Source of the DNA: Mya arenaria | Lineage: Eukaryota > Mollusca > Bivalvia > Myida > Myidae | Direction of reading: 5' to 3' | Length of the DNA: 64,000 nucleotides | Assembly: GCF_026914265.1 (NCBI RefSeq) | Contig: NC_069125.1 | Coordinates: 25,036,966-25,100,965, forward strand | Shown here: in pieces, positions 12,901-59,496 of the stretch | How positions within the stretch are numbered: position 1 is the stretch's first letter | Layout: every line of letters starts with the position of its first letter | The notes under the pieces: generated by a model | The model's database searches: none | Told to the model about the DNA's origin: nothing | The model's input: the letters and a program-made list of their open reading frames with translations, nothing else | Position numbers and translations under genes: made by a program

Positions 12901-15900
12901 TGAATCATTGGAAATATCACAAGTGCAATCTGGCTGTTGATCGAACTTTAGATATCAAGGCAATAAAAATTGTGAAAGAGTTTGTAAACATTTGATCACA
13001 AATGCACAAGTTAAAAAACAGGCATTAAAGTGTGACGTCGCGAACGACACCAACAGAAATCATGATCCTCATATGTCTGTCATAGTACGCAAACGACATA
13101 AACACATTCCAATTCCAGGCACAGCTACGCTAAAGCTGATTTTTTCTGCACTGACAGGCTTCTCGTCAAATACAAAACTGAATAAAAACGTACTGTTCTG
13201 TCCGCAAGGCATCATGGTATGCAAGCAATGGAACTATCCCAAATGGAGTATCCTTGATGCCAGCTTTTCCTGCAAAAGAAGCATAAATGATGAATTCCAA
13301 GACTGATTTGACACAAGAAAAAATAAATAAGCAGTCAGTTAAACAAACACACCGCTACTGTCTGAAATGTTGTACGCTAGTTTGAAATTGAACCAACATT
13401 CAACAATACATTAAAACAACTTTACAACGTGATGTGACACGAAACTTTCAAAACATGATGTTACAAACACCAATCTTATATAGTGCCATGATATTACATA
13501 TTGGGGTAATACATATTGGGGTATAATGTGACTTTAAACACTTAATTATTATGCATAATTCATAAATCATAATAAATAATAAATCATGTTGTATTATATC
13601 GATGATATACTAGCAGAAACTATGAAATAAAAAATGTGGCATCAAACAGCAGATTCGAGATCTTACATTTGTAATATATCTCATCTTTTCAATTTCATCT
13701 CTTTCTATGTATAGTTCCTTTAGCACCAACTTTTTGTTGAAGCCTTTAGCTTCTTTTGTGGCTAAAAAAATAACAAATATAATTATGTTCATTTAACTCT
13801 CAGGATATATATATATATAAGCACATAAGCCTATATCACTTTAAGTAAATCATAGTAATTAACTAATGCATTTTTCAGATAAGTCCACAGACGACTGTTT
13901 CAATTTATGGATGACCGAAGAAATGGGGTGCATAACTAATATATGTTGTTTTTATATGGGTCGTGCTAAAAGGCTGACCAAATGGCTGCCCATATTTTTA
14001 TATTGAAAGGCTGCACCTAATATGTATAAGAAGTGTCAGCACTGTCTTTTTCTCGCGCGGAGATCATTTGTTTTCATAACCACATTGCCAGTGGGTCATA
14101 AATCTACGAAACACAAATTATTAAAATTATTAATTAATTTCATCGACAAACTGCGGAAAATATTATAATCATATTATGCATGGATTGAAGAATGATAAAT
14201 AAAGAAAGAAATAAATAAAGAAATAAAGAAATAAATAAATAAAGAAATAAATAAAGAAAGAAAGAAAGAAAGAAATAAAGGAAGGAAGGAAGGAAGGAAG
14301 GAAGGAAGGAAGGAAGGAAGGAAGGAAGGAAGGAAGGAAGGAAGGAAGGAAGGAAGGAAGGAAGGAAGGAAGGAAGGAACGAAGGAACGAAGGAACGAAC
14401 GAATAAATAAATAAATAAATAAAAAATAAATAAATAAATAAATATAGAGCATGTTTATCTCACTTATAGTTATACTGAAACAATATTATATTGTCACATC
14501 TGCTTTGATGAATGCTGATAAAATAAGATCATATTTAAAATAAGGCGTCAAAAGAGACCGATTACTAATTAAAAACAACAAAATATTTATTAATTTCAAG
14601 TTTTCTAATAGCATTGTTATTTAAATTGCATTAAGTTCTAATTTTTAAGAAGTCAGATTTGTTTTTATCTCAATTGTATTTAAAATGGCTCTAATTGTTA
14701 GCTTACTTTCTTCATAATTTGATTCCTATTATGAACTTCCTTTTCATTGAAAGCAGTTGACCTTAATCCTCCCATTGGTATGAGGGAATTGAAATAAAGA
14801 TGCCCTTTAAAGATGTACTCTCAAAGATTGACAATTTTGACATGTTTTAAGTTTTGTCTCATCTGCTGAATTTGGCAACAATGCCTTCATTTCAGTCATA
14901 TTAAATAACTCCCAGTATAACATATCTTAACTGTTTTGAAAAACGCCAAAATATTTAGTTTTCTTAACGCATTAGTATTATAGTAACACTTTTTGCCATA
15001 AAACATCAATTTTCAAACTTAAATATGAAAAACGGTGATCTGATCATTTGTCAGCAGAATTATATCACTGAATTTCAGACATGTACGCAAAATTGGCTCA
15101 TTCCAAGACAAAAAAAGTTGAGAGAGTGCAGTTTGACTACTCAGTAATTATTATGTATATAAAAGAAATGCATTATTTGTCTAATCTTTCTCTCACTTAT
15201 GAAGAACACATTTGTAATACATATATTGAAAAAAGCGTATTTCACTACTGAAGTGCAGATTGTTGGAGATCATGGCGGATAGCAAAGGGCAACTGATAAG
15301 CCGCGCCTTATTATTACGCCGATTGGTCAGTCGGGTATTGGCCGGCTAGTTTAAATGACAGCCCGCGTCATGTCAATTAGTGACGTGATCATTTGCTTTG
15401 AAAATCCACATGGCCAGTGGGTCATATAACTATGGGAAATACAACTAAAACACACAAATTCTAAAACTTATTAATTAATTCGACAGACTGCGGGAAATTT
15501 TATGACAGAATGAAATATAAATTGAAATAATGAAAAATAAATAAATATATAAATAGCCAGCTTCTTTTTCTAACTATTTATTGTATTTAAACAATTGTGA
15601 CAACTGTTTTTAAGAATGCTATGGAAGCCTTGGAGGGCCACTTTTGAGTTTCGACTTACGGGTACTTTTGACTTTTGACTTTTGACTTTCGACTTATGAC
15701 TTTTGACTTATTACGTTTGAGATGCATGCCTCATCTCATGATGGCGGACAAGGAATATTCAGAAGAAGTAAGTTCATTTGTCTTAGTTTTTTCTTGTATT
15801 ATTTGCGAAATAATTGAAAACAAAACATATATACACACGTCCGCGAACAGTGTGTTATTAATTTGCAATTAATTCGGAAAGAAGAGTCGAAAACACTTTG

Positions 15901-18900
15901 TTTGCATGGCACCGTTCATGCAAAACACCGGCACTAATGGTGTTTGGTTTTTATTTCTAATGTACTAGAAAGGAACACTTGGGATCCTTTTCCACAACGC
16001 TATTTGGGCAGAATTCAAAGTTCACTGAATACTTTGACTTGTATGCACTGTCACTCCATATAGAGCTTCCCTCGAATAGAGCTCCCCGTGTTTTTCTTCT
16101 GTCACAAAGTGCACAATGTAGGCCTTTCTGTAACATATTCATTTCAGGAACAGGGAATCTTTGCTACATGTGTAAGCTCAATCTGACATATCTATAAATG
16201 AAAAGCCTAAATATTGGATCGGGTTTTAAACCCACTTAGATCAGCATTGTTTGTTGCCGTTTGCAGTTTCAAATTTGTAATTTAAACTATCGCATTTCAT
16301 CCGTGGTTCATCCGTCCGTCCGTCCGTCCTTCAGTCCTTTCTTTAACAAATTATTGGTATCGCAACCCGCAAGTCGCAAGAAACTACTGAGTATAATTCA
16401 ATGAAGCGTGACCACCATCATACAGTACCATATTAGTTGCTAGAATAGCGTTGCTAGGTCAATGGTCAAGGTCACATTGACCTACCTTTGAAATCGTCGT
16501 ATATTCACTGGAAATAATGTATTGATTTCAATGACACTTGGTCCTAATTGAAAATGGGTCACTGAGTCAAAGGTCATCGTGAGCTGATTTTGAAATCGGG
16601 TTCTGCTCAATAACTGGTAAAAATGTTCACCTGAAGCGCCTGTAAAGAAAGCTCTACATAAGGAACTAGATAGATTTAATTATAGCGCACTCAATTGTTT
16701 TTGGACTGGGTTCCTAAGGCCGCGTTTGGTCCCCTAAGCCCTTTGATCCAAAAAATATATGATAATAACACGAACACTGTCAACGGTTCCGGCCATTATT
16801 TCACACTTAATGCTGTATAAACACGTCCTCGCTAAATTATGTACGTCCCAGCCATATGTGACAACTATCAAATAAGCTGTATGTGGGCTTTCAAATGTTT
16901 TTAACGAATAGAGCTCCCTTTTAAAGACAGCACTATTCGTTGAAGTTCATCGAGATCCCGTGTAACTCGTTTCGATGGGACCTCTATAGGGTGTGACAAT
17001 GCACACTTAATCAAGTTGATGAGGAATGAAATAAAGCTAAAGGGGGAACAGTTTAGCATTGTTTCGAAATAGTATTGGGGCGGTTTAATCTTTTGTCCGA
17101 GGTCTTTCGCTCTTTGTGAAGGTAAATTTCCGATTGTTCGCTTTCAAAAGGCCATAGATGTGAGAATTTCTATGTTTTGTAGTCCCTTATATATGAATAT
17201 GATGTAAATTTATATGCTTCTTCAAGAGTCTACACTTAAATTTTCAGTACTTGTTATAAGTCTGCTACTTGTAAGGAAATAGTTTCGTCCTCGTCAGTTT
17301 CGTAACCAGAATGCAATATTCGTATCCTCGACCTTTCGTTCGCGATTCATATTTTGCTGTTTCGTACTAGATGTTGTTAGTACCCTTTTATTTAGGTGGA
17401 TTACAGTGGTGTACTAGTGTACTATGCTTTTTCATGTGAACTGAGTATAATTTGGTTCCTTAAGTCCTGTTTATAGATCTATGAAACTATTGATACTATC
17501 AATAGATAAATACCTCTATGTACTTGACTTATTTAGTCATTTGATATGCTTAACCACCATTTTAATTGGATTATTACAGCATATTGAGCTTCGGGCATTG
17601 GGGATTATGTGCCCTTATAGTATATATTTAATAGGTTATCGGGCTTTCTGGTAAATGTGCATTTCTTTCTTTTTTAAGCTTTACGACAAATAAACCTCGG
17701 ACTAACCGTTCTCGTTATTACCTTCCTCGTCAGGTTAAAGCATTATGATGCGGTGCACAACGTTTACCTATGTTGTTTTAGGAAAACCGTGGCTGGTCTG
17801 TAGCATATGCCTTTAATAGTTCGAATAGTTTACTCTTTTTTATATTTCCGAAGAAACCGAAAGGAGCGTGTTGTGTAATAAAATAATAATTTATATATAC
17901 ATGTAACTGGTCGTTTCTTTCAGAATTCAGATTCTTGTTGAATGTCAGATGTACAGCTAATACACTTCATACTTTGCAGGAAAGAGGAGAGCGGATTAAA
18001 GCAGTAATTGAAAATATTCGTACTCGTAGTAAAAAGCTGAAGAAGAAAGCTCTGGTGCCTGCTACTAAAAAAGTCAGTGAGCCAAAAGAAAAGGAAAAAA
18101 TGGTAAATATGTCTAAAAATAGATTTGTCTTGGTACTGGCAGGGGAACGACTTACAATAACAAGGTATTCTTTATTGGAAACCACTTTATTAGCTCCATT
18201 TTTTGATGAAAAAGCGGAGCAATTGTTAACACTGCAACTTTTAATGAATGTCGTTCGTTGGCAAAGTCAGGTAGAAACATGCACTATCTCCTTATCTAAA
18301 CAGAAGATTGTAAGCGGTGCAAATATATATAACATATTTCATAACTTGAAAACCACTGGATGGAATTTGATAGTAACTTCATACAATGGTAGAGCTCATG
18401 AGAGGAAGTGAAGTGTACAAGAACCATAACTTATTTGCTTAATTACTGAGTTATTTTCCTTTGTTACTTTTTCTTGTCCGGAGCATAACTTTAAAACTAC
18501 TGGATGGAATTTCATATAACTTTATACATGGCGGTGGGGAATATAGTTGTCCTTCAGACTGCAATCTTGTTAATTTCTGTTTTGTAGAACTTTGCATACA
18601 ATTGATCTATAATAGAAGTTATTATAACACATATATAATATGCCATTTCTTAGGATTTTTCACTACAACTGCTAATACTACTACTACTGTTATTGATGCT
18701 GCTATCGCTCTGCTACTGCTACTACATCTACTACTTCTACTACTACTAGAACTACTACTACCAATACTACTACTGCTTATACTACTTTTACTACTACTGC
18801 TTCAACTACTTCTACTACTACTGCTGCGGCTTCTACTTCTAATACTTCTTCTATTACTACTAATACTACTACTACCGCTAATACTACAACTACTACTATT

Positions 18901-19123
18901 TGTACTACTACTGCTTCTACTACTACTACTACTGCGGCGGCTTCTACTTCTACTACTACTATAACCTTTACTCCTACTACTACTTCTACTACTACTACTA
19001 CTACTACTACAGCTGATACTACTACTACTACAACTACTTCTACTACTTCTAATAATACTGCTTCTGCTACTACTACTACTTCTACTACTAGTACTACTAC
19101 AACTTCACTTCTAGTACTACTAA

Positions 19124-19194
<71 letters not shown>

Positions 19195-19441
19195 TTGCTG
19201 CTGCTAACTACTACTACATGTACTACTACTACTGTTGCTACTGCTGCTGTTGCTGGTACTACTACTACTACTACTACTACTACTTCCATTACTACTACTA
19301 CTACTACTTCCACCGTCTACCGTTACTAGCCCTACTAGCGCTATTACTTCTAGTACTACTACTACTACTACTACTACAACAACAACACAACAACAACTAC
19401 TACTACTACTCATACTACAACTGCTACTGCTTCTACTACTT

Positions 19442-19486
<45 letters not shown>

Positions 19487-22400
19487 TTTCATTTAGGACT
19501 ACATGTTCTACTTATTTCATTTAGGATGCTGCAGGACAGGAAAAGAGAAAACAGAAACCTAGCGGCCGTCATACTATGTACAAGCTACATATCGGATGGC
19601 GCCATTACTGTCAAGGTGACTTTAGACAAATTACATCAAGACGAGGTGGGGGCATTCGGAAGATGGAATATAATATAACGGAGCCTCAGTCAGTGGAATC
19701 AATAATTGAAGTCGGCAAACGTTTATTTTTTCCGAATGGAAGAAATTCTTTTGGAAATTTAAATGATATGGAAGTGAATTTAACTAATTACAGCGGTGAG
19801 AAAATTGAACGCTTCTGCAATATAGATGAACAACCGTGTACATTTCAAGAATTTTTGAAGTCAACAGGAAGGTACTCGTCTCAATTCCATGTTTATCTTT
19901 CGACGAAAAGCATTACCTATGATAAAATAAAGCCACTGGAAGAAACAAGTGAAACGAGTTATCTTGCCAACAGGAAGACAATACAAGGACTGCATGTACA
20001 GTATACTAAGAATGAAACATCAGAATATTCAGGAGACACCTCAATTATCACATGTCATAGCACAAAACAATGCAGGGAATTATCAGGTATTCCTGATGAC
20101 ATAGACGATTACGACCCTCTTGAAGATGGTTATAATGTAACGTATCTGGCTGTAAATGATAAGGTTTACATGGAGCGAACTTCGTCTGGCCTCAGTTTTC
20201 CACAAGACGTCGCTGGACAAGACAGTGCATATATATTTCATGGACCTAATGAGATATGTGGAATGAATGAAGGCAAAGTTGTTTTAGGCGTAGTAACAAA
20301 CTGTTCTGAAAACGTTAATTACACATGGTATAAGGATCAAAGCATATATGCAGCAGGGATTAATCTCATGTTGATACATACAAATGACACTGGTGTCTAT
20401 AATGTAAAATGCCAAGTAGGCGAAACGTTGTACACCTTTGAAGAGAGTGTTGAAATAGCTTTGCCCGCAACTACAGATAGATATGACATGGATATGCGAA
20501 TCGACAGCGAGGTTACTGAAAATCTGAACACCACACACTTTGGCATAACTGCTGATTTGAAAGATTGCGTTTCTAATACAGCAGCTACAGATTCTAGCCT
20601 AGACATGGTTACACAAACGTTTATTGAAACAAGTGATTTGGGTGAAAATGATGGTAAAGGTACACACAGTTTAACAACAACAACTTTTATCTGTGACAAA
20701 GACGGCACATGTGCAAATGCTGTATCAGCAGCTTGTGAAACAAGTGTATTCTGTGAAAAAGACGGCATAGGTGCAAACGCTGTTTCAACATTTCTTGAAA
20801 CAAGTGTAATCCATGAAAGAGATGCCACAGGTGCAAACGTTGTTCTTACATTTCCTGAAACAAGTGTAATCCATGAAAAAGATGGCACAGGGGCAACTGC
20901 TATTCCAACAATTCCTGAAACAATTCCTGAAACAAGTGCAATGTGTGTAAACAATGGTACAGGAACAAATACTATTTCGACAATTCCTAAAGTAGATGTA
21001 ATCTGTGAAAAAGATGGCAAATGTTCAAAGACTGTTCAGACAATTCCTGCAACAAGTGTAATCTTTGAAAAAGATGGTTCAGATGCAAACACCGTTTCAA
21101 CAGGTTATTTCTGTGAAAAATATGGTGAAGCAGTAAACAAAGCACCAACAGTTACCGAAACAAGTATTTTGATCGAAAATGAGTGTACATGTTCAAATGC
21201 TATTTCAACAGTTACAGAAACAAGTTTTTTGGGTGATGTTACAACTGAATTCTTAGATATTTCAACAGGATTTGTGGATTCTGTGGAAACCAGACTGGAC
21301 AAGGATGAAAATGAAAATGATATTAAAGCTAAGCTTACTGGAAAAAAACTCAAGAAAGAGTATGGGTTCTTCTGATAATTTAGTTGCAGAGCAACCACCA
21401 GTTAAAAAAGGGTTTACACAGTTGGATGCTAATACTGACAACTTAAATGTAAGGTTTGGAGACTTCAAATTATTGGAAAAAATAGGGGAGGGTGGTTTTG
21501 GTGAGGTTTACAAAGGTGAATATTTGGGAACAGATATTGCAGTGAAGAAAGTTAAGATAAAACGCATGAAAGTTGTGAAACAGTCAGTGTTGCAAGAAGT
21601 TGTCACAAACAGTCATCTTAGGCATCCAAACATTGTTCTACTGATGGGTTACTCAATCAATACTGACTGTCTCTATCTTCTCACAGAGTTCATTGCAGGT
21701 CCAAATTTGGATGATGTGCTTTTTGCTGACAATGAGTACGAATTTACTGTGCCTCAAAAACATGCAGTGGCATTGCAAGTATGTCAGGGTGTAGCATATT
21801 TACATAATCATAATCCAATAGTTATTCACAGAGACATTAAGCCTGAAAACATTTTGCTGACGAGAAATTTGGAAACGGCAAAACTTTGTGACATGGGATT
21901 GTCTAAGGTGAAGGTAATGAATACCATGACCAAAACAGTTGCAGATCGCAGAGAGACACAGCCAGGAACTCCAGCTTATCAAGCTCCAGAGATTCTTCTG
22001 CAAGCTAGGAGAGGCAGAACACAAGCAGATGTTTGGAGCCTCTGTTGTTCATTAGTTGAGCTCTTTACTGCCAAAACCATATGGGACTTGACCAGTGAGG
22101 ATGATGAAAATGACGACTCTGTCCAGGTTATAATCCGGGCAATGCAATGAAAGGATATGCCACATGGGTTAAGTAATTTAGACAGGGAGCATACCCTTTC
22201 AGTGCAGCTGAAGGCTGTTATTCAGAAGGGCTTATCATACCAGATTGAGGACAGACCGACAGCATTAGACTTTGTAGTTGCGCTAAAACATGAACTTTAA
22301 AGAAATGTGATGAGCAGCTCAGGACCATCATGGCCCTCTTTATCAGATTGACGATTGTTTAGAATGCCCTGTGCAATTAGTAATGTACATGTAGCCTCAT

Positions 22401-25400
22401 TTGGCTATTATATTGGAGGTTATTTTCCCTAACACACCTCATATATCGCATAATACTGGTAAGGATTTATATAGATCTTTGTGTTTTGTGTTAAAGATAA
22501 TTAACGTTTGAGACAAGTGACCTTTATGTTATTCAGTAGAAAGACAAAAGGGTCCATTTTCTCATGACGGCAGGTATTTGTTAAAAGTGAGGTTTCACAC
22601 AATCCGTTTACACAAAGTTATATCTTTTAACATTATAGATCTGATTTAAAGTGCACTTGTTACATTTGCACACAGTGTAAAACAAGACCAGTTGGCTCTT
22701 ATAGGAGCCCTTTGATTCAGGTATACAGTGTTTGAAATGTTACCGTTAAAATCGTTAAAATACATGTATACATAGAAATCGTTAAAATACATGTATACAA
22801 AATACAACAGTAGACTTGTTCATTAGTTTGTTGCAGATAAATAAAAAGGACCATTAAAAGTTCATAAAAGTTATTACGAGTTATATCCATACATACCTTA
22901 GAGACAACCTGTATAAATACCTACTTTTGGAAATCATTTGAACACTATTGAGACTATTCCATGAGAGCTTTTAAAAGTTGTTCTGCAGTCAAAGTCATCG
23001 GCATTATTGTAGATGTTGTCAAAGTCTGCATTAGCAATACTCAAACTCTTTGGCTTACATGTATATTGTTTTGTATATTTGATCCTTTCCTCAACACCAG
23101 CGCCTCTGGACGCCTCTGAAATATCAGATTTTCGAAAATGAAGCATTTGACTATATGGAGCCTATGCTTGAATTCAAATCATTACTTAAGTTTTAACTTA
23201 ACTTTAAAAATTGTAAAAGTAGAGACAATGATGAAATGATCTAAAATAAAGCCTGTTGTGGAAAGGATTCATTTGTACAAAATGCCATTAATTTGTGAAA
23301 TTCATTGTAGCAATTTGAAACAATTCATTGTAGCAATTTGAAACAATTGAGTTACATTAGTTAAACAAGAGTTTGTGAAACACAAATGCCCCCCTAAAAG
23401 CAGATATTTCTTTTCTAATGTATGTCAAAGATGGCCAAGATTAAACTTATAAAAAGTAGGTCAAATGTCAAGGTCACAGGTCAAAAAAGTTGGTATGTTT
23501 GCATATATCATGTCACAAGCAATATATACCTATAAAACATGAAAAGCCTTGCCATCAAATCACAGTACTGAATGACCTTCACCTTTGACCTACTGACCTC
23601 AAAAGAAATAGAGGCCATCTACTCATCATCAAGTACCTCCCTAGCAAATATTAGGACTGTAAGGATGGATGAGTTATTGATCGGAAATCATTTGGTCAGA
23701 ATTACAGTAATGAATGACCTTGATGACATTGACCTTTGACGTACTGACCTCAAAAGAAATAGGAGTCATCTACCCATCATCCCGAACCTCCCTACCAAAT
23801 ATGAGGACTGTAGGTTTAAGGGCTATGTCATAATTCGAAAATTATATTCCCTGGCCTAAACTGTCTATTCTAATTTGTCAGCCTAGTTCTACGATATCGA
23901 TAGTAAATATCCAAAACAGTGTTTCTGCAACCTGACAATGTTGAATGGAAGGTATCTGCATAATGTTAGCCTCCAATTACGACTAATTACTACCGGACAA
24001 GCTAAAACAATAGCTTCCGGCAGTTGCAGGACATCTACCTCACCCCAGTGGTATCAATAATAACTATAATAATATAAGACAGATACACTATCTAGAGTCA
24101 ACGAGAGTTAGATTTTGTAAAAGAAACTGATATAACCTAGAATCGCACAAAACGACTTTGTAAACAACCAATTTTCTCTTGAAATGTTTGAACTTGACCA
24201 AATTTGTTTATTTACAAAGTTGTTACAAAATATAATAAGGGTATTCTACTCATTACCACGAACCTCCCTAGCAAATATGATGACTGGAGATGAAAGAATG
24301 GACGAGTTATTGATCGGAAACCATTTGGTCAGAATTACAGTATTAAATGACCTTGATGACCTTGACCTTTGACTTATTGACCCAATAAAAATAGGGGTCA
24401 GACCGACCGACAGACCGACCGACATGTGCAAAGCAATATACCCCACTTTTTTCAGAAGGGGGCATAATAAAGTTTTTATACCCCCACAATAGAAATTTGG
24501 GGGGGGGGGTATATAGGAGTCACCCTTTCGGTCGGTCGGTCGGTCTGGCGGTCGGTCTACAAAAGTTTGTCCGGAGCATAACTTTAATACTACTGTAGCT
24601 ATGTTGATGAAACTTCATATGTAGATAGACCTTGATGAGGGGGTAGTGCAGTGCACAAGAACCATCACTATGCTTGCTCTTTTAAAGGAGTTATTCCCCT
24701 TTGTTGTTTTTGGTCTTTTGATTTTGTCCGGATCATAACTCTTATACTTAAGCTGCTAGTTTGATGAAATTTCGTCTGAAGATAGACCTTGATGAGAGGA
24801 AGTGCAGTACTTGAGAACCATAACTCTAATTTGCTTAATTACGGAGTTATTGTCCTTTCTATATTTGTTATGTTATATAGTTAAACCTTGCCCTTATCTA
24901 CTTAAGGATGCTGTGGGGGGTATTAATCAAATTTAGTGATATTTCTAGTTCATTTAAGAATAAAATCTTAAGTTGTAACTCACAAGTCACAACTCATAAC
25001 TCACAACTCATAACTCACTTGTGTATAAAGTACCAAGTAAATGTAGTATTGGAAGTTTAAGAGTGTGATTTAAATGCTGTGTGTTGAAGATCGGGTCATA
25101 TTTACAACCGCTAGAGTGTTCATAAGCATTTTTTAAATTTTTTAAATGACCTAGTGATCTAGATTTTACGGTGGCACTGAGGTGACATGTGCAATATATT
25201 TTAAAAGATTAACCTCGGGAAAACGAAATGGACTTAATGACATCCCGAGGGGGGGTTGACGATATACCGGCAATATACCGGAATATCCCCCGCACAGTCC
25301 CCACCCACTCATTATTCCGTTCATTCCGTATGCAAGTTGCATACGGAATGAATGGGAGAATGAGTGGGTGGGGACTGTGCGGGGGATATACCAAAAACAT

Positions 25401-28400
25401 AACTCTGGAAAACGAACTTTCTTTTCTCGAATTAAAAATAACCTCGGGAAAACGATCCCGATTTTCTTTTTTAACTCGGGGGAAAACGAAAGTGTTTTTT
25501 TTATCTCGTTCCCACGACATAAACAGCCAATCAAATTCAAACGAGACTTTTGCTATACATACAATTGCTTTGACCCTTATTTGTCATCTGGTAATCTCGT
25601 CTACTTCAACGTCGTCCAGTTCGCTTCCAATTTAAAAGAACTGTTGGCCGAGTATCAAGCAGCTTGAATCCTGATCAGAATCCGAATTACACGGCGTCTG
25701 ATATCGATCCAAACTGTTTACATACTTATTTTACATTATTGTGGCCGCGGTTAGCATGAAAGGAGTTGAACTCTTTCGTGATATAGGATAAGGACCACGA
25801 GACTTTCGCTTTAGACATACTGTTGTTTTAACCTTAACCCTTTACTCCATATGTACTATTTCTATTCATTTGCAAACAGGGTATACCCAGATCACGCCGC
25901 TCCTACAGAGGCTGCCTAATCAGGTTATATCCTGTTTGCAAATATGCAATATCCTAGAAATAATTCATCACAATTGGCTATAACAAGTACGTACCATTAT
26001 AGAGATATATTAAATTATATAGTCATGGTGGGCGGAGTCTTTCTTGAATATTCAAGGAGTAAAGACTGACCCAATTCATTCACAGACTGAACAAATGCGA
26101 TTCCCGGCGCACTCGCAGTGATCTGCATGCGTTTTTATGGAGGCAACTATGATTGAACTCTTTATTATATGAATATTCAAGCAAGTCTCCACCTACCATG
26201 AGTATATAATTGAATATATCTTTATAGTAGCACATAAACTAATGAATATTATTGTCATAGCCGAATCTGAAGATTTAATTTCTATGATATTCCATATTTG
26301 CAAACAAGATGTATCCTGACCAGAAAGCAGGCGTAGACAGGAGTATAATGCATATATGGAGTAAAGGGTTAATGTAACTACAGTGCACCTACCATATAAG
26401 AAGCCGCATAAGCAGTTTCTGAGACACGTTACAGCTTTATTTATGCCTTAAAACAACTATATAAGCAAGTCAAATGGTAGAACTTTCAAAGACCTTTTCT
26501 TGTTTAGAACAATTTTCTGATTTTTAATCGCCATTTTTCGAAACTGATATGCAGTACCCTTAAAGTAGTTTTATCAATAACGTACGCCCATGCAATATTC
26601 ATTAGTACAATGGGTATTTATGTTTAATCAATTCTCGAAATTAAATTGTTCAACTCAGTATACAGTCGTAGTGCTGACTCAGCGTCCAATGGCATCTGTA
26701 GATCTGGCTTCAAAAGATGTGCTAATTCTTTGAATTCCTCACAGTGTCTTTTTGGACGCGAATACATGTCTTTGCAAACATTTACGTCATTCAAGTTCGC
26801 TGCATTACCGAAGTCGTGAGTTTCAAACAGACCTGGTATAAAGAACAGTGTGTCAGGTTTTCCACCAATAACCGAAGAATTGGTTTGTTCCCTTATCTCA
26901 TGAACGTTCCATTGCTGTGCAATCCGGTCTTACTCGGTTTGTATGAGATCCATAAAGCGAAATTTTAAGTTCTCACATTGTATTGCGTCCAGCTCATTAA
27001 ACGTCCCTGTATCGCGTAAGTCTTTGAAAAAGTTAATCCACCAATGTATTCCATTTTGTCGTAATGTACCCCACCACCTCTCAATGCGCTGGTTCGATGT
27101 GCTTTTTCCAACTACAACGCTTCGAGCCCCAGCAAACGGATCAGTAGCATCGTGCCGGAAGTATTGCTGCAAAAGTAAAGCAATGCAGTTTTCCGTGCCA
27201 CCATCAGAACGTAGTATTCGAGGGACTTTTTTATGTTCATTCAATGCATCTAAAAAGTATCTTGCAATTAAGCGTGGGTCATTATTTGAGTCCGAAACCT
27301 CTAACCATATTATTTTCCTACTAAACCCATCCACCGCACCATGAATACAAAATCCATATGGCTTTAATTTGTCGTAACCGTCTATATGCCATACAAAATT
27401 GGGTCCTTTGGCAAAGTATACTCGCCGGCGGAGACGATGTGCTTTTCGCAGCTCTACACCAACTGGATCCAGCGCTCTCATTATTTCCATGACGTCGTCC
27501 CTTTTGACGTACATGTTGTAATCCAGCATTAACCGACGCCACATTGTACGGTAACCTATGCATTGTCCACTTGTTTGTATTTCTCTGTTTATAACATCAG
27601 ACACAATCTCCAAAGGTGTATATATTATATTACGTCGTTTCAAATTTAAGCGTTTAAGTATCCTCTTTACTGTCCTCAATGACGTTATAATGCCATGTCG
27701 TGTCAGTAAAAATGCAACAATTTCATAGATCTTAAAGCCTTTCTGAAAGTACTCTACTGTGAGCAGAGTTTTGTCTGTTATAGATGTTGGTGGTAGGTAC
27801 CTTGGCACAGTAGCTTGGGCAATACCGAGCAGTATTATGAAACAGACACAGAACACTATCCAAGTTGTCATCTTCATATTTTTCAGTCGAGTAGTTGTGT
27901 CTGAAAAAACATGTTTATATATATGATATTATTCTCTACATTGTACAACATAGGTAACACTATTGAGTCCAAAGTACTCCATATGTCTTCAAAAAGGAAG
28001 TACTCATTAATGGTATATTTCTTACCTAGCTAAACATTTTTAAAACTGGCTCTGTGCTTGCTTGGTAAAGTTACCTACCTATACATGTTTAATGCTGGTT
28101 CTGTGTTTGCCCGGTAAAAATGCAGTCTATTTCTTACCTAGCTATACATGTTTAATACTGGCTCTGTGAACGTCTTAAAAGTGATATAACTTGTCAGATC
28201 AGAGTTTGTGTTGAGAAAGATAGAACATGTATGACCACTAAAAACATGAAAACATTAACAATATAGTCCACATATTACTGAACTCATTCTCACACACACA
28301 CACACGCGCACACGCGCACGCGCGCACGCGCGCACGCACGCACACACGCACACACGCACACACACACAATCCTCCGTCACAACCCACAATTAAATATATG

Positions 28401-31400
28401 CGATATTAAGTATTTGAGCAAGAATAATTAAAATCATTTTAATTCACAGTGTATGTGCCAGAGAAAACGTTTAAAATAGGGGTTACATACCTGAAATCAA
28501 CGTAGTTCCCTTCAGCTTCTGGAGCACGTGTATAATGCATAGCCTAAGTCAAAAGTCATAAGTCATAAGTCGAAAGTCGAAAGTCAAAAGTCAAAAGTCA
28601 AAAGTCAAAAGTCAAAAGTACCCGTAAGTCGAAACTCAAAAGTGGCCCTCCAAGGCTTCCATAGAATGCTGATAAAATCCGCTCTGATATCATATCTAAA
28701 ATAAGAGGCATCTGTTTTTAAAGAAAAGGGACTGATTACTTATTCAAATCAAAAACAATAATTATTAATTTCAAGTTTGAGTGTTATTGAAAGTTTTGAA
28801 TTGAAACTTATTTTTCATCTTCGTGGTCAAAAAAAAAACAGTTTAACAATTAAATTAAAATTAAACAAGCAGCAAACCAGAATTCTTTTATTCCTAAATC
28901 TATTTAAAACGGCTCTAATTGTTAACTTACTTTTTTCATAGTTGGTTACCCATTATTAACTTTATTTCCATTGATAGCGGTTGACCCTAACCCACCCATT
29001 GGTATGAGTGGGTTGCAATAAAGATGCCCTATCTTTAATGTTGCACTCTCTAAGTTTGACAAGTTCTACTTATTTAAGTTTTGTCTCAGAATCAGCTAAA
29101 TTTTGCATCAGTGTCTTCATTTCAGTCATTAAGATACCTCACAATATTAATCTCAACTATTTGAAAATCTGCCGAAAATTATATTTTTCTTAAAGCGTTA
29201 GTATTATAGTAACGCTTAATAATATTAATACTAATAATAATTATTATTATTATTTTCGTATGCGAATAATTTGATTTATTGCGTAAAAATAAATTACTGT
29301 GTTAGGTTCTATATCTTATCGTGAGTTTACTTCCTAGATACGCATAAACAATGACGTAACTAACTTTGCCTGGAACTCTGGAAAGAAGTTGTGTCGTAAC
29401 TTCCGCTTCCTTTTTACGGAATCATTTAACGAGACGTGGCCTACTGAAATTTCTCTCCCACCCACCACACCCCAAATGACTTAAATATATTTATATAGGC
29501 AGAAATACAGTTGAGCATGTTTTTTCGTCACTTTGTTATTAATGATCAATAGTTGTATCATCATTTCCTCTGACGAAAATGTATATAGTATAACGTACTG
29601 TGGTTTAGTTTTATATACTTTACGTTGTGACCGGCATTTGCCGCTTACCTTTCCCCGGGCTGTGAGATGAGGCACGTCTGTCACAAGTGTCACAAATTCG
29701 GGGATGTACATTTAACCATTAGTTATTTAATATAATTTTGTCCACGGATGGCGGAAAATTCTTGTTGCGGGCGAACAACAAAACTCAGTGCCAAATAAAT
29801 CATTAAAAGAAAATTAAATAACATGTATACATAATTCAGGGTCTGCGATTGTTAGCTCCTGCGGGCAGAGGAACCTCCAAAAGGGGTTCGATAAGCACGC
29901 TCGCGGAGATGGGATCGCACACCAATCTTTTCAAGTTTGTGTTATTACGCCATGCGGAAAATTGTCTTTACTCTGTTCATACGCAATGTCTGCTAGGCTT
30001 ACATGCAGGTGCCCGTGCTGTGGTTCACGAGCCAGTCATATGTTAAGCCGGTCTATATGAATTGTTCAGCTATCACTCGGACAAGCTTTGGTCTACCGAC
30101 GGACCGACTGACCGACTGACTGACCTACCGACCGACATGTGCAAAGCAATATACCCCTCTTCTTCTAATGGGGCATAATAACAGTGATGTGTCGACTGAA
30201 ACAGGCATTTGATATAGTCAATAAATGCAGGCTCTAGACGTGTTTTTACAATAAGCATTTTACCTACAAATTATCGTTTAAAATGTACATGGTCAATATC
30301 CGAAACAGGCCTTATTTTCATAGAGATGCACCGGTTAAGTTCTAGGCAATGTTTAATGGAACGAAGTTTCATAAAGCTTGGGAAAAGTGTTGATATCGAC
30401 TATGGACGTTTCATGTTGGATGAAAACATGTCATTATAGCTCATCATGAGCACAATTTGCTCCGTACGTGTTGTATTGAAAAAGTAACAAACGAAAACTT
30501 ACTTGCAAGTACTTTTGCACCATTGGTTTCTGCCAATACTTTTGCTTTGCCGAGTTCCTTGATGTTTGCTATTTGAGTTTGGTTGAGACTAATTAGACGT
30601 CCGTCAAACAAATCTTTTTTAATAACCATCAAATGATATTTGTTAAGTCCTTCTAACGATAAATTTAAATCATTTTGTGGTGGTATTAACATAGTTTCTC
30701 CTAATTGTAGCTCATCTGGGGGGCTCGTAGCTGGGGTTACGATGGGTTGTGGTTCAGGGTCTAACAACACCTCTGTAAGCCATTCAATAATGTATTAAAA
30801 AGGAAATATATGTGTATGTTTTAACAAGCGCACCGCTATCTGAGGCAAATGCTCGTCCTCTTCCGGAGCATATGTCGACGCCTATTTTTGTCAAGAGTAA
30901 TGGGAATTGAAATTTGCTTATTGTCATAGTAAACATGAGCACCTACCAAGTTTGATGCGACGACAATACCGTGGTTAAATTTCCTGCTTCGTCAAACAAA
31001 CTATGAACACTGTTCTGTTCTTTAGTCTGTTAACAGACAAGTCAATTTTAAAAATAAGTATAATATTTATCGATGCCAAATCCAACTTTTTTTCTTAGTT
31101 GTTCCCAGTCAATAATTACAGCAGTGCATCTCTTCATTTCCATAAAAAGGACCCTAAATGTTGCCTTATTTGCATTCCCCCGTTTCCAATATTTCAACAT
31201 ATTGTAAATCTGCTCTATAAGAGAATATACGAAGTCCAGTTTTATTCGTTCAACGGATGGTTTTGTTACGCCCAAAACGTCGGCGAATTGCAGAAGCAAT
31301 GCTGACTAACTCACGGTCACTAGGTTCTTTGTCCAGTTTTTCATGAATGCAAGCAGATCTTGAACCTGAACAAAATAACAAGTCAATTGATCAATGCTAA

Positions 31401-35165: not shown

Positions 35166-35516
35166 CATTAATAAACTTATGCTATATTTAATTTGAATAT
35201 GTAAAATAAAATTTAAAAATCTAAAAAAAACACTATTATTTTATTTTTAATTTACTGCGGTCGTTCCTTCGATTTCCACAAATTGCGCTAAGTCAAACCA
35301 AAGTGAAATCAAAACTGAATTAAAACTTAAACAATGGTAAGATCTGTTAATGTTTGTGAAATATATAATATTTAAATATAGTTTATAATTTTATTTGACC
35401 TTTTACATATATTTGGCACCTTGCAAGCACTTGATACAGCGTTTTTTTTGCAAATGTAATCTATTTTCGCGACCCATATTTTTTTTAATTGACGAAGCGT
35501 TTTGTGATTTGCATAA

Positions 35517-37609
35517 AAAGATGTTTTCATACTGTCTAAACGCAGAAAAGTTGTATCAAATGTCCAAGAACATGTTGATGCTATTAGTAATGCTATCTCA
35601 TGGACTGATGATTTTGAATTGTCTCAAAGTCCTGAAAGCAGTCCACATGTTCAAGATGATATTTCAATTTGCTCTTCAATGTCAACTGTCAGTTCTGATA
35701 CCTTGTCTCAAACTCTTGATGATTTCTTGGATAATCAATCTCAGGAACCAGAAGCTGCAGGTACAATTTCCTTTGATGAGTTTGTTGAGGGTAGGTCTGA
35801 ATATGAAATGTCTGACTCTGATGATTTTGGTGATGATTCTGATGATGCCGATGTAAATTTATCAACTCTATTGGTTTCCTTGGTAACAACATTCAATATC
35901 ACTCATGCTTCACTGAATGCATTGCTTTTTATTTTGCGTAAACATCACACATACCTACCGAAAGATGCAAGGACTTTGCTCAAGACAGCAAAGAACTATG
36001 ATATTGTGAATATTGCTGGTGGTTTCTATTATCATTTTGGCATTGAAAAATGGGTAAAAACAATGATTTTTACTGGAAATGTTGAAGAAGTTTCTATTCA
36101 GGTCAATATTGATGGATTGCCATTGTTTAAAAGTTCTGGTGCCCAGTTTTGGCCGATCTTAGGTAAGCTTGTCAAACCACAAATTTCTAAGCCATTCGTC
36201 ATTGGTCTTTTTTCTGGAGAGAGTAAGCCATCAAACTTGTTTGAATACCTTGAACGTTTTGTCACTGAATTGGATAACTTATTTCGAAATGGTATTTTAA
36301 TATCAGAGATGGCAGATGACAGAGTGGATTTTTCCCTTTCTTGTGTTATTTGTGACGCTCCAGCAAAAGCTTATATTAAACAAATCAAAGGCCACAGTGG
36401 TTATAGTGGATGCGATCAGTGTTCGCAAAATGGATATTGGAATAAAAAAAATACATTTCCGGAAACTAACGCTGTTCTTAGAACTGATGTATCCTTTGCT
36501 GAAAGGCAAGATGAAGAGCATCACATAGGTCGAACCCCATTTAGTGATTTGCCAGTTGGCATGGTATCACAGTTTCCTCCTGATCCTATACATCTTGTCT
36601 ATCTTGGAGTTGTAAAACGCATGATTGGAATTTGGATGAAAGGGCCTGTTGCTAATGAATCCCGCATTGGTAGTAATGCTGTAAAGGGCATATCTGACAA
36701 TTTGGTTCAGCTGAGAGGATATTTGCCACGGGAATTCAATCGAAAGGCTCGTACTCTTCATCATGTTGAAAGATGGAAGGCCACAGAATTTCGCCAGTTT
36801 TTGTTATATATCGGTCCTGTTGTTTTAAAAAACATCTGTCACCTGCAAAATACAGAAATTTTATGCTTTTGTTTGTCAGTATATTTTGCTTGTCTTGCGA
36901 TTTCTTTTGTGAAAGTTACAGAGATTATGTACATGAATTGCTCTGCAAATTTGTTCAGAAGTTTGGGGAGCTTTATGGCACAGATATGCTTGTTTTTAAT
37001 GTTCATGGTCTGGTTCACTTAGCAAAAGCTACCGAGAAATTTGGCACACTTGATAACTTCTCTGCGTTTGCCTTTGAAAGCTTTCTAGGGAATCTCAAAC
37101 GATTGGTGCGAAAGCCTTCATTGCCTTTACAACAAGTAATACGAAGAATTTCTGAAAGCAAGGGAAACCTTTTTGACCCGACAGTGCTAATAGTTGCACG
37201 TAAGGATGGCAAACTGAAGAAAAACCATATGAATGGTCCAGTTCCAAGAACTACTTTTCCATTGGTTGCTTCACAGTATAAGGCAATCCAGTTTCCTAAC
37301 CTTTATTTGTCTACATCAAAGGGAGACAATTGTTGTCTTGTGAATGATGATGTTGTGATTATCATAAATATAATTACACTAAATGAACACCCAGAAACGC
37401 ATTTTGTATTTGAAAAGTTTAGTCGTGCCTCTGATTTCTTCAATTTACCACTACCGTCCTCGGACCTTAGAATTAAACGAGTGTCACATTTGAGTGGTAC
37501 ATTGCATGTTATTGGTGTTTCAGAAATTTGTTGCAAATGTGTTTTACTACCAATGGATGATGATTTTGTTTGTATACCCCTTGTTCATAGCTTTGGCAAG
37601 ACTCATTGA
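35517..37609 (+). pseudogene. EnSpm/CACTA-like transposase, frameshifted
   Basis: The frame is open from 35517 with no clear ATG (RKVVSNVQEHVDAI at about 35544 is probably coding, so a 5' exon may be missing). A Ser/Asp-rich acidic stretch comes first. The core has VNIDGLPLFKSSGAQFWPIL, FVIGLFSGESKPSN, CVICDAPAKAY, KGHSGYSGCDQC, HHIGRTPF and FPPDPIHLVYLGV, the usual landmarks of this transposase family. At about 36835-36845 the reading moves to the next frame (SPAKYRNFMLLF, then FNVHGLVHLA, FESFLGNLKRLVRKP) and ends at 37607-37609. One frameshift is therefore the only clear break in about 690 codons. Confidence 0.75.
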
Positions 37610-41390: not shown

Positions 41391-42130
41391 TTGTAATACC
41401 GTACATGTGGGAAGAATCGTAGTCCTCAGACCAACGTTGTGGGAGGTACACCGTAAATGTGGGCAGTACGAAATCTTCCCAAAAATACGGTACCTTTATT
41501 TCATTCATTTGGTCTTCAGGGGTGATAATTTAATGTTTAAAAATCTGCCCACAATTCGCCAGCTTGGGTTGTGGGAAGAAAAATAATATTTGGCTTGCCT
41601 CCCTTGATATATTTTCTGATTAAAATTTTCAATCGAGCAATTTGGTCACCGATATCCCGAAGCCTGCCTACGGAGATGGCCGAGTTGTCACGATCGTTCC
41701 TCGTTGCCCAATTGAAACTTCCCGGCTTGACTCGGAATAGGGTCGGCCATTTTGATAATATTTATGGAGTAGCAGAACAGAATTTGAGGTCCGTTTATTG
41801 TGTTTTAATTGTTAAACTGGTGAAAAGATGTATTGTTTTGGCAGTAAACTATTGAAACTTGATCTTTTTAATTTAAGGATTTCCAGAAAAATTGCCACTG
41901 GGAGTAATCAGCGGTTTTTTTATGTTTATGACTGCGCGGTGCTGGCATAAAAAAGTCAACTTGTTCTGGAAGTGGAATAATTTCAAGCAATTCTGTATTA
42001 ATTAAGATAGCTGTTGAAATGAAGTAAATCTTATTTTTCTCTCATTGATATCAATGCTTTTCACATGTTAGTGTAAAGGGATTCAAATGATAGGAAAAAT
42101 GTTTTAGAAATGATGCCTACTCTGACTGTA

Positions 42131-43300
42131 GCTACAATAATGAGCGATCAGGGATACTTTTTTTTATTATTTTGACATTTCTTATGTATCCCTGTAATGC
42201 TACAACTCTCTACCATTTAGCAACGGGCGAAATGATATACTGTAATAATATGCATTGATGTTGAATAATAATGACAAATTTTTTCAAATTTTATCCGACA
42301 GTGATCTGAACTGGATTTAATTTGTCATTAGAGTTGTTATTTTCACATTAATATATTATGGGTCACGAATACCGTTTACATGTTCACAACCAGTCAGATT
42401 TGTCCCAGATTTACCGATATCGGGATACTTGATAAACAATCGACACTTGTACGTGTTTTATGATAACATGTTTTTTGGGCATACTGACATAACGTAATAT
42501 GTGTTTAATAGTAGGCAATAATATTTTCGTAGAAATTTGAATTTATAACGGAGATAATTTCAAAATTGTGACTGCGAGGATTCTCTGCGCAAGGACCGTT
42601 CGCTACTTTTTGCTGGGATGGTGGACGTCACAAGTCTGCCATATTAAAAAAATCGTCAAAAGACTCGTTGACGGCCATGTAGGTGGACTAACTCTGACTG
42701 GTACATAATCACAAGTTAGACATAGCTACAATAATGAGCGATCAGGGATACTCTTTTTATTATTTAGACATTTCTTATGTATCCCTGTAACGCAACAACT
42801 CTCTACCATTTAACAACGGGCGAAATGATATACTGTAATAATATGCATTGATGTTGAATAATAATGACAAAGTTGTTCAATTTTTATCCAACAGTGATCT
42901 GAACTTGATTAAATTGGTCATTAGAGTTGTTATTTTCACATTACTATATTATGGGTCACGAATACCGTTATACATGTACACAACCAGTCAAATTTGTCCC
43001 AGATTTACCGATATCGGGATACTTGATAAACAATCGACACTTGTACGTGTTTTATGATAACATGTTTATGGGGCATACTGACATAACTTAATATGTGTTT
43101 AATAGTAGGCAATAATATTTTCGTAGAAATTTGAATTTATAACGGAGATAATTTAAAATTGTGGCCGCGAGGATTCTCTGCGCAAGGACCGCTTGCTACT
43201 TTTTGCTGGGATGGTGGACGTCACAAGTCTGCCATATTAAACAAATCGTTAAAAGACTCCTTGACGGCCATTTTGGTGGACTACATCTAGTCCATATAAA
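42131..43300. repeat. 593-bp tandem duplication
   Basis: GCTACAATAATGAGCGATCA at 42131 recurs at 42724, and nearly every later base recurs 593 bp on, to GGATTCTCTGCGCAAGGACC and ..GTCTGCCATATTAAA. Copies differ by scattered substitutions and small indels. No conserved ORF spans both. Confidence 0.9.
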
Positions 43301-56340: not shown

Positions 56341-57731
56341 AATTCCTCCATAATGAAGGGATTTTAAACAGGTAACCAAAATGAAATACGTTTACAAGAT
56401 ACGACGAAACAAACGTAAGCAGAAGTAAATAAAAGTGAAAGAACAAACAACCAATCCAAACTATATACATGTATATAATATAATCAAAATATGATGCAGT
56501 GTATCTGAGATTGTTGAAGACAATACTGTACACAGGCGTGGTTGGTGCAGAGGTTGGGTCAATCCTTATCTACTGACAGTCAACCGCCCCTATGCCAGGC
56601 AACTTCCTCAACAGTCTCTGAGCACTTGCATTTATATTGGTAAACTAAAAAGATGTAAGTTGTACAACAAACGTTGAAAATAAAATACATTTGCATTAAC
56701 TTTCCGATTGAATTTCTTGTGTCATAAACAAGTAGAGTTAAATTATGATAATAATTAAATATCAAACTTATTATAATGCAAAATGGAACTTTAATTTCAC
56801 CATATAAACATCAGCCTATCACAAAGACGGAATTGGTAAACTAATGTATGATGCGATATTTATCTTATTTACAGTTTTAAAGTCACCTTTTAACCAAATC
56901 ATAGATACTCTACACGGTTAATATCATACATGGTAAACACTGAGCAAGTGCCTTGCCTAAATAATGTAGGTACCTTAGTACCGTTTTGAATAAATGTACT
57001 CGACTATCATCACTTAGTGAAAGCTGTCCGAAAAATAGTCGGGATTTTTGTCAATCTACATCCGACCTTCATAAATGCGAAAATAAGTCAATTCTAGAAT
57101 TATTACGTTTTTTCATGTGCATAAACAGTGTATAAATTATACACTGTTTATGCACTCGATTAAGGGAAATAATTTGTGCTGTTGAAATATTGTTCCAAAC
57201 CTCACAACCGTATATCTTTTTTTGGAAGGACTATAGTCTGAAAAATGTTTCATGGTTAGTGGGTGTAGACTTTTATTATCGGATGCGCCGCAATCTATTA
57301 GACTGGATTATTGTTTTCTGAGTTCACAGCACGCATCTTAAATACTATTATTTGTGTCAATGTACTTGTCGCATAAGACTCTTGGGTGCAAGTTAACATC
57401 GACTTTGTTTCATTTAATACCACTATTTGTGTATTACTTGCATTATAATGATATCGTTCTTTTAGTGAATTGATGGGGAAAAGTTCTAAGCCGTTTTTGC
57501 CAAGTGAAAGCAAAACCATGTCGCCGGCGTACGTTGAGCATCATACACAGACATCTAATATTGATAACGAGTGCCCGTGTGCATAAGGTTGATTATGTAG
57601 AGGAGATTGACTCCAGCGTCCCCCCCTGTCTCGTTCCTCGTTGTATCTAAAACCATTCGGACACACATCCTTGTTCTCGTATGCAACTGTAAACGTGTCT
57701 GAGTCCCATTCCCTGTGTAACCGATTTGATA

Positions 57732-57757
57732 ATACCGTCCAGATGACAAATATATGT

Positions 57758-57855
<98 letters not shown>

Positions 57856-58010
57856 AGACGGAAAGTGGGCAGATGACTAGTATATATTAATTGGAAGACA
57901 GGTTGAAGGGTAGATGTGGGCAGATGACAAATATATATGGGCAGATGGTATTCTGCTGGTATCATCATCCCACAAACATTGTTTTTGAAAGGAGAAACAT
58001 TGACAGATAG
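57732..58010. repeat. Duplicated segment, copy 2, with (AT)n inside
   Basis: Same segment as 56135-56340, but with about 95 bp of pure AT expansion (57759-57853) where copy 1 has ATATATAT only. Confidence 0.85.
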
Positions 58011-58765
58011 ACATATACGTTCGTACGCAACTGTAAATGTGTCTAAGGCCCCTTTCCTGTGTAACCAAACAGATATAGAGGCAGTCAAATTTGTCCAAGA
58101 AAAACGAAAAAAAAAAAACGGTATGTTCCTTAATGTTGATTTTGTTTGATATATATATATATATATATATATATAGTGCCATTTTATTAAATCAGTGGTG
58201 GGAGAATGAACAATGATACCAAATGTTCTATATCTATCGCCATAGAGAATGGGACGAGAAATGGATTCAAGGACGCGTCCAATAATATTGTGTCACCTGT
58301 GTAGCATGGTAGGCCCTTAGGGATTACTTTTATTTTGTCCGGCGTCTGTCTGTCTGTCCGTCACACTTTTTCATCACGTTTCAAATAACTTTTTTTCTGC
58401 TCAAAGGATTGGATTGAACCTTCTGACAAATGTTTATATCAATGTGTATAATTGGTTCACAGAAGGGGGGTAATCAAAATATTTTTATATCAGTTATTGC
58501 CCCCTTCAAAAAATTGAATTTTCTGACAAGGCGCTGGCAGGTGACACACATGCTCCGGGAAGCACTCCATTCTAGTTTAAAAGAAATGTTACTAGGTAAT
58601 ACTGATAGGGGTTTTCAAGATAGGGTATTTGTGTATTAATTGTTTTTACTGTTTTAATACTTCTTTTTTCATTTCAAGATACTCGCCGCTTAATTTATAG
58701 GATTGAATATGTTTTTGCAAAACTATCAATACAAATTTGAATTATAATAATTGATTTATTTTCAG

Positions 58766-59496
58766 ACTAAATCCACGATTTGTTGCATCTGATTCAGAAT
58801 CTAGTGGTGGTGAATCTGAAGAAGATTCTTGTCCAGCGCCGCCCCCTAAAATACTGCTACCAACAATCTCAACACCTTCCAGCCGTGTCTTATCTACCTC
58901 TTCAAGCCGTGTTCCGTCTGCCTCACCTACCTCTTCAAGCCGTGTTCCGTCTGCCCCACCTACCTCTTCAAGCTGTGTTCCGTCTGCTTCACCTACCTCG
59001 TCAAGCAATGTTCCGTTAACCTCACCTATCACGTTAAGCCGTGTTCCTTCAGCCTCACCTACCACGTCAAGCCGTGTTCCGTCAGCCTCACCTACCACGT
59101 CAAGCCGTGTTCCGTCAGCCTCATCTACCCTGTCAAGCCGTGTTCAGTCTGCCTCACCTACCCTGTCAAGCCGTGTTCCATCAGCTTCACCTACCCCGTC
59201 AAACCGTTTTCCGTCAGCCTCACCTACCCCATCAAGCCGTGTTCCGTCAGCCTCACCTACCCCGTCAAGCCGTGTTCCGTCAGCCTCACCTACCCCGTCA
59301 AGCCGTGTTCCGTCAGCCTCACCTACCCCGTCAAGCTGTGTTCAGTCTGCCTCACCTACCCCGTCAAGCCGTGTTCCATCAGCCTCACCTACCCCGTCAA
59401 GCCGTGTTCCGTCAGCCTCACCTACCCCGTCAAGTCGTGTTCAGTCTTCCCCATCTACCCCACTAAGCAGTGCTCGGGGCATACATGGAATTTCAG
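58766..59496 (+). CDS. Repeat exon of the DUF4806-type gene
   Basis: It follows TTTATTTTCAG and ends GGAATTTCAG|GTAAGA. From about 58885 to 59450 it is built of 33-bp units coding SSRVPSASPTP with variants. The array is a multiple of 3, so the frame is kept. The His/Pro/Arg/Gln-rich plus-strand ORF at 59041 and the Asp/Gly-rich minus-strand ORF are other-frame readings of the same array. Confidence 0.75.

Follow-up and report, generated by a model that had tools for sequence, protein, structure and literature searches.

A probable IS3EU-type DNA transposon of the clam Mya arenaria with a probably resident protein kinase gene

Eukaryotic cut-and-paste elements are usually pictured as a transposase and the ends that go with it. 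A stretch of 64,000 nucleotides from the soft-shell clam Mya arenaria (contig NC_069125.1, positions 25,036,966 to 25,100,965; hereafter the window) raises the question of whether a protein kinase gene can also be a regular part of such an element. At 15620-28663 of the window lies a 13.04-kb DNA transposon with two inverted ends 13 kb apart, in which a kinase gene on the plus strand at the left and a transposase gene on the minus strand at the right are convergent. We consider it highly probable that this is an IS3EU-type cut-and-paste DNA transposon in which the kinase gene is resident.

The junctions of the element read GAATGC/TATGG...CCATA/GAATGC. The target-site duplication GAATGC, read directly at 15614-15619 on the left, recurs at 28664-28669 on the right, and the direct repeat fits equally well as 6 bp (GAATGC, with ends TATGG..CCATA) or as 8 bp (AGAATGCT, 15613-15620 on the left, with ends ATGG..CCAT). 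The left terminal inverted repeat (15620-15720, plus strand) starts with TATGGAAGCC and contains an array of 7-bp units (ACTTTTG and variants), and the right one (28545-28663, minus strand) likewise holds an array of 7-bp units and ends in GGCTTCCATA. These inverted repeats are about 100 bp long; the outer 70 bp are identical from TATGG inward, and the arrays follow on both sides. A repeat search paired 15607-15720 with 28563-28676 (89% over 114 nt), and blastn of the two ends gave 93% over 103 nt, both alignments extending 13 bp into the flanks. When a 12-base array pattern was searched across the window with two mismatches allowed, 28 matches were obtained against 19.35 expected, a count that is weak by itself because 5 of 100 shuffles reach it. 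The unusual part is the distribution: 18 of the 28 matches sit in the two ends, 7 on the plus strand at the left and 11 on the minus strand at the right.

The window also contains an empty paralogous site, a diverged duplicate of the insertion site at 14397-14603 (plus strand). The alignment of the joined flanks with this site runs through the junction, matching in 164 of 230 columns (71%); the aligned part contains a single GAATGC and no insert, and the element presumably inserted after the flank had been duplicated. An earlier note on this DNA, made from the letters alone, had defined the unit by its inverted ends, the direct repeat at its borders and the empty paralogous site, and all three were found again; its limits (15621..28662) move by one base on each side, and the 8-bp repeat that it described can also be read as 6 bp. 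More widely, the sequence around the insertion site (14062-15000 and 28660-29217) consists of diverged duplicates, with 28878-29217 matching 14654-14991 at 78% over 346 columns.

The gene on the right (26627-27877, minus strand) encodes an IS3-like DDE transposase. Its minus-strand open reading frame (ORF) at 26930-27877 matches Pfam family PF24764 above the cut-off (E 8.4e-27), the matches to rve and HTH_21 staying below theirs, and protein P0001 (415 amino acids) matches 27871-26627 at 99.5% in tblastn, on both sides of and across an in-frame stop at 26927-26929. The catalytic triad of P0001 is formed by D164, D223 and E264, with 58 and 40 residues between them. With the NCBIfam models, IS3 scored E 2.5e-11 versus E 1.1e-5 for IS481, both far below the curated cut-off. 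Among 120 relatives listed of the 1180 found, the DDE pattern is present in 111 and the HHCC pattern in none; the named relatives among the matches listed come from scallop, Ruditapes, Mactra, two corals and a hemichordate.

These features agree with the IS3EU superfamily. In complete IS3EU families the ends are TA..TA and the duplications usually 6 bp long, and the IS3EU and GingerRoot elements in general share with the clam element an IS3-like transposase without the HHCC motif, as described in the available part of PMC10045372. The word kinase is absent from the main text of that paper as available, a difference from the clam case. According to the available part of PMC12730594, the rust-fungus IS3EU families that are TET-positive end in TAYGG..CCRTA. 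The clam termini, TATGG at 15620 and CCATA at 28663, fit both the TA..TA and the TAYGG..CCRTA forms; GAATGC lies directly outside the TA..TA ends and is single in the empty site (the 8-bp reading fitting equally), and the inverted repeats of about 100 bp exceed the 30 bp expected of the superfamily. Polinton/Maverick and Ginger elements also have an integrase-type DDE enzyme, and Polintons are likewise large, but the clam termini differ from theirs; as a candidate identity, Polinton was rejected since no polymerase or capsid domain was found with Pfam in the five element ORFs scanned. A survey of bivalve transposons relied on 17 superfamily profiles, with IS3EU not among them in the part of PMC10294476 available, and such elements may therefore have been missed there.

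The kinase gene starts 21 bp inward from the inner end of the left inverted repeat. Exon 1 (15741-15767, plus strand, as are all its parts) was read directly as encoding MADKEYSEE before the donor GTAAGT, and the same N-terminus is found in the Mya protein P0123. Exon 2 (17980-18102), between the acceptor ...TTTGCAG and the donor GTAAAT, encodes a basic tail, and the tblastn matches of P0123 and P0124 end at 18102. Intron 2 includes an ACT-type simple-repeat tract at about 18620-19500, and exon 3 (19525-22300) encodes a module, an immunoglobulin (Ig)-like domain, a repeat linker and a Ser/Thr kinase; tblastn of P0121 matches it at 98.9% and 98.2% in two pieces. Read by eye, all exon joints are in phase 0. 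P0123 starts with the same joint of exons 1, 2 and 3, and tblastn recovers exons 2 and 3.

The predicted protein combines several parts. The tail is basic: among the first 75 residues of P0123, 22 are K/R and 12 are D/E. From this N-terminus without an evident leader, the protein is probably intracellular. The N-terminal module (19561-19941), marked by GGG...LFFP.G motifs, is probably a ubiquitin-like beta-grasp, as predicted from a structural model (predicted local distance difference test score, pLDDT, 80.9) and fold comparisons. A probable Ig domain, as named in the earlier note, follows at 20224-20472, and then a linker of degenerate repeats at 20616-21198, spaced mostly at about 60 bp (20 residues). 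The kinase domain (approximately 21467-22297; HRDIKPEN, DMG and APE) matches PF00069 with E 5.9e-47, and the catalytic HRD and D-x-G motifs are present. In a comparison of six proteins, from which the truncated P0126 was left out, HRDIKPxN occurs in five and C-D-M-G in all six. The proposal that a DDE integrase gene and a large repeat-containing Ser/Thr kinase gene face each other is thus borne out by the PF24764 and PF00069 matches on opposite strands.

This copy is damaged. Because P0121 (925 amino acids) matches as two overlapping pieces in different frames, a frameshift is placed at about 21.32-21.38 kb (21323-21375, plus strand), between the frame of the Ig domain and linker and that of the kinase, and an in-frame stop lies inside the kinase domain at 22148-22150 (plus strand). 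Owing to these two lesions and the in-frame stop in the transposase gene, this copy of the element is probably inactive, with a full version of either protein out of reach as assembled. Undamaged and very similar kinase genes are recorded from Mya arenaria as protein records.

We compared the kinase gene with its copies and relatives. Its product matches the Mya arenaria records P0121, P0122 and P0123 at 99, 100 and 99% identity; P0121 and P0122 carry the kinase domain, P0122 without part of the linker. The Mya records of the gene, whole or partial, form clusters of 12, 3, 3 and 1 on chromosome-sized contigs of 69.4, 76.8, 82.8 and 64.4 Mb, counts that may be inflated by isoforms or by records from multiple assemblies. 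In the MHK-like Mya prediction P0128, a different N-terminus is joined to element exons and most of exon 3 is skipped; it retains the beginning of exon 3 along with the final part of the kinase, and may be either an internally deleted copy of the element or a misprediction. A further match of P0128, identical at 22 of 22 residues, falls within intron 1 of the element (16925-16990), and therefore a second locus shares the non-coding DNA of the element. Homology searches returned eight proteins for the first ORF of exon 3 and six for the module region. P0125, with 45% identity over half of that ORF, has the order module-Ig-kinase, and P0129 (14 members) has the same order by alignment. Because copies are spread over four chromosome-sized contigs and relatives with module, Ig domain and kinase occur elsewhere, the kinase gene is, as judged from sequence comparison, most likely a resident gene of the element and not a one-off host capture. 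The earlier suggestion of a resident kinase gene is thereby strengthened by near-identical copies on four contigs, the intron DNA shared with P0128 and the gene start close to the left inverted repeat. Scans of contig collections that may omit records near the genome of the window gave no further relatives: the transposase alignment yielded 19 stretches in a viral collection and 34 in a genome collection, with none confirmed in either, and neither the 29-bp terminus nor P0125 had a match in the viral one.

A kinase in such an element had been presented in the earlier note as something new, yet there is a precedent: fungal IS3EU families carry an alpha-kinase gene opposite the transposase. As far as the available part of PMC12730594 describes them, all TET-positive families have a TET/JBP gene between the transposase and alpha-kinase genes, the latter two being oppositely oriented; they share with the clam element 6-bp duplications, TAYGG..CCRTA termini, inverted repeats longer than 30 bp and a kinase gene opposite the transposase, and differ in that theirs is an alpha-kinase with TET/JBP in fungi, whereas in the clam, an animal host, the kinase is of the PF00069 type and follows a module and an Ig-like domain. 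With Pfam, no TET/JBP domain was found in the five clam element ORFs scanned, and the domain scan of the element ORFs gave no alpha-kinase match, the kinase being PF00069. Alpha-kinases and PF00069 kinases are separate families, and therefore the clam and fungal cases look like parallel acquisition or replacement. A second likeness is found in medaka, where the protein LOC110016336 (P0130) resembles the clam protein in its N-terminal GGG...LFFPEG module (E 1.3e-4, with 38% identity across 53% of the region) but lacks a kinase, its sole domain match, to SRF-TF, being weak and below the cut-off; its C-terminus presumably resembles G2E3/HECT-like fish proteins, a match that Pfam did not show. A conventional kinase with the module and an Ig domain in an animal element appears to be a new variant. 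A literature search for bivalve DNA transposons that combine terminal inverted repeats with a protein kinase domain found nothing, and no title among the IS3EU and IS3EU-plus-kinase papers found names an animal kinase-bearing IS3EU, although Repbase reports lay outside this search and absence from print is not established.

Two other accounts of the identity of the element and its kinase gene have to be weighed. The hAT, Merlin and MULE-like superfamilies make 8-bp duplications, and an element of such a superfamily might have drawn in an integrase gene. The repeat AGAATGCT is exact, as this account expects; the type of the transposase disfavours it, as the enzyme is IS3-like (PF24764) and the other four of the five ORFs scanned show no other transposase domain, and the ends also fit TAYGG..CCRTA. 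We regard it as highly improbable. Transposons are also well known to capture host genes, and the kinase gene could be a captured host gene, carried as passive cargo without a role in transposition. The module occurs without a kinase domain in the medaka protein, and the kinase gene is broken here, in keeping with cargo. The start of the gene is nevertheless 21 bp from the inverted repeat, its orientation is convergent with that of the transposase gene as in fungal IS3EU, the order module-Ig-kinase recurs in P0125 and P0129, and both, with kinase parts 44% and 38% identical to that of this copy, retain the HRD and DMG motifs, so that we judge capture as passive cargo to be unlikely. Besides the uncertain make-up of the record counts, several points weigh against an IS3EU element with a resident kinase. 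The 6-bp and 8-bp readings of the duplication are both exact, and a single copy cannot decide between them. The copies and relatives of the kinase gene are known here from protein records, not between ends beside a transposase gene, and P0123, like the broken gene, fits cargo as well, since it ends before the kinase domain. The glycine-loop pattern fits two of the six proteins compared and the lysine pattern four; by eye, the lysine is also present in P0129, another residue takes the place of the first glycine of the loop in P0122, P0125 and P0127, and P0128 is without the first lobe. The three lesions in this copy could be real or assembly errors.

What would a resident kinase do for the element? 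Going by what is known of the family, the transposase would bind the inverted ends, with the 7-bp arrays as possible contact sites, excise the element and reinsert it with a 6-bp staggered cut. The kinase protein, with its basic tail, probably ubiquitin-like module and Ig-like domain taken as protein-binding parts, would be an accessory factor working in trans: by phosphorylating either the transposase or some nuclear factor of the host, it would favour transposition or escape from silencing. We infer the kinase activity, the need for it in movement and its substrate, and put forward the accessory role in transposition as a tentative proposal with somewhat less than an even chance. A broader scheme, in which animal IS3EU elements have a two-gene design with a ubiquitin-like module and an exchangeable signalling part (a kinase in the clam, another C-terminus in medaka, the fungal alpha-kinase having been gained separately) needed for movement or escape from silencing, is doubtful. 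Alternatively, the use of the kinase to the element might lie in changed growth or stress signalling of the host, which would favour carrier cells rather than transposition. The protein is large, multi-domain and of signalling type, and DNA transposons are enriched among the repeats amplified in the transmissible cancer of Mya (8 of 45 versus 171 of 4,471; PMC10663159, part available). Still, nothing links the element to those repeats, and IS3EU, integrase and kinase have 0 mentions each in the main text of that paper as available; we hold such a signalling role to be very unlikely. Returning to the accessory role, a resident kinase in an animal element together with the fungal parallel points to phosphorylation as a tool that the IS3EU superfamily may have used repeatedly. 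In addition, some predicted Mya kinase genes are probably transposon genes, which is a warning for annotation.

Many of the transposases begin with a signal-peptide-like hydrophobic stretch (27790-27877 on the minus strand in the window; relatives P0001-P0120), a surprising trait in an enzyme that should work in the nucleus. Among the relatives that start with M and have at least 390 residues (109 of the 120 listed, the other 11 sequences being left out), 88 have this stretch, compared with 6 when each sequence was shuffled once. After clustering at 65% identity with the N-terminus excluded, it was present in 34 of 42 clusters versus 4.7 expected from shuffles, and absent from 8; the leader was called by a hydrophobicity threshold, which differs from a signal-peptide predictor. 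Within the doubtful broader scheme above, since most clusters examined have such a leader, release or delivery of the transposase might be what the kinase controls.

Between the two genes of the element, a nested fold-back stretch at 25824-26382 (no strand assigned; inverted repeats I2, I9, I12 and I14) is perhaps an insert like a miniature inverted-repeat transposable element, and a near-perfect palindrome at 25280-25392 has arms of 56 nt that are 93% alike and 1 nt apart. Outside the element, five ORFs of at least 150 amino acids (35395-37609, 57555-58088 and 1229-2122) had no Pfam match at E 0.01. At 42129-43283 a segment of about 560 bp is directly duplicated at a short distance (94.7%), and a tandem array at 58886-59475 proceeds in steps of about 33 bp, its pieces being about 80-88% alike.

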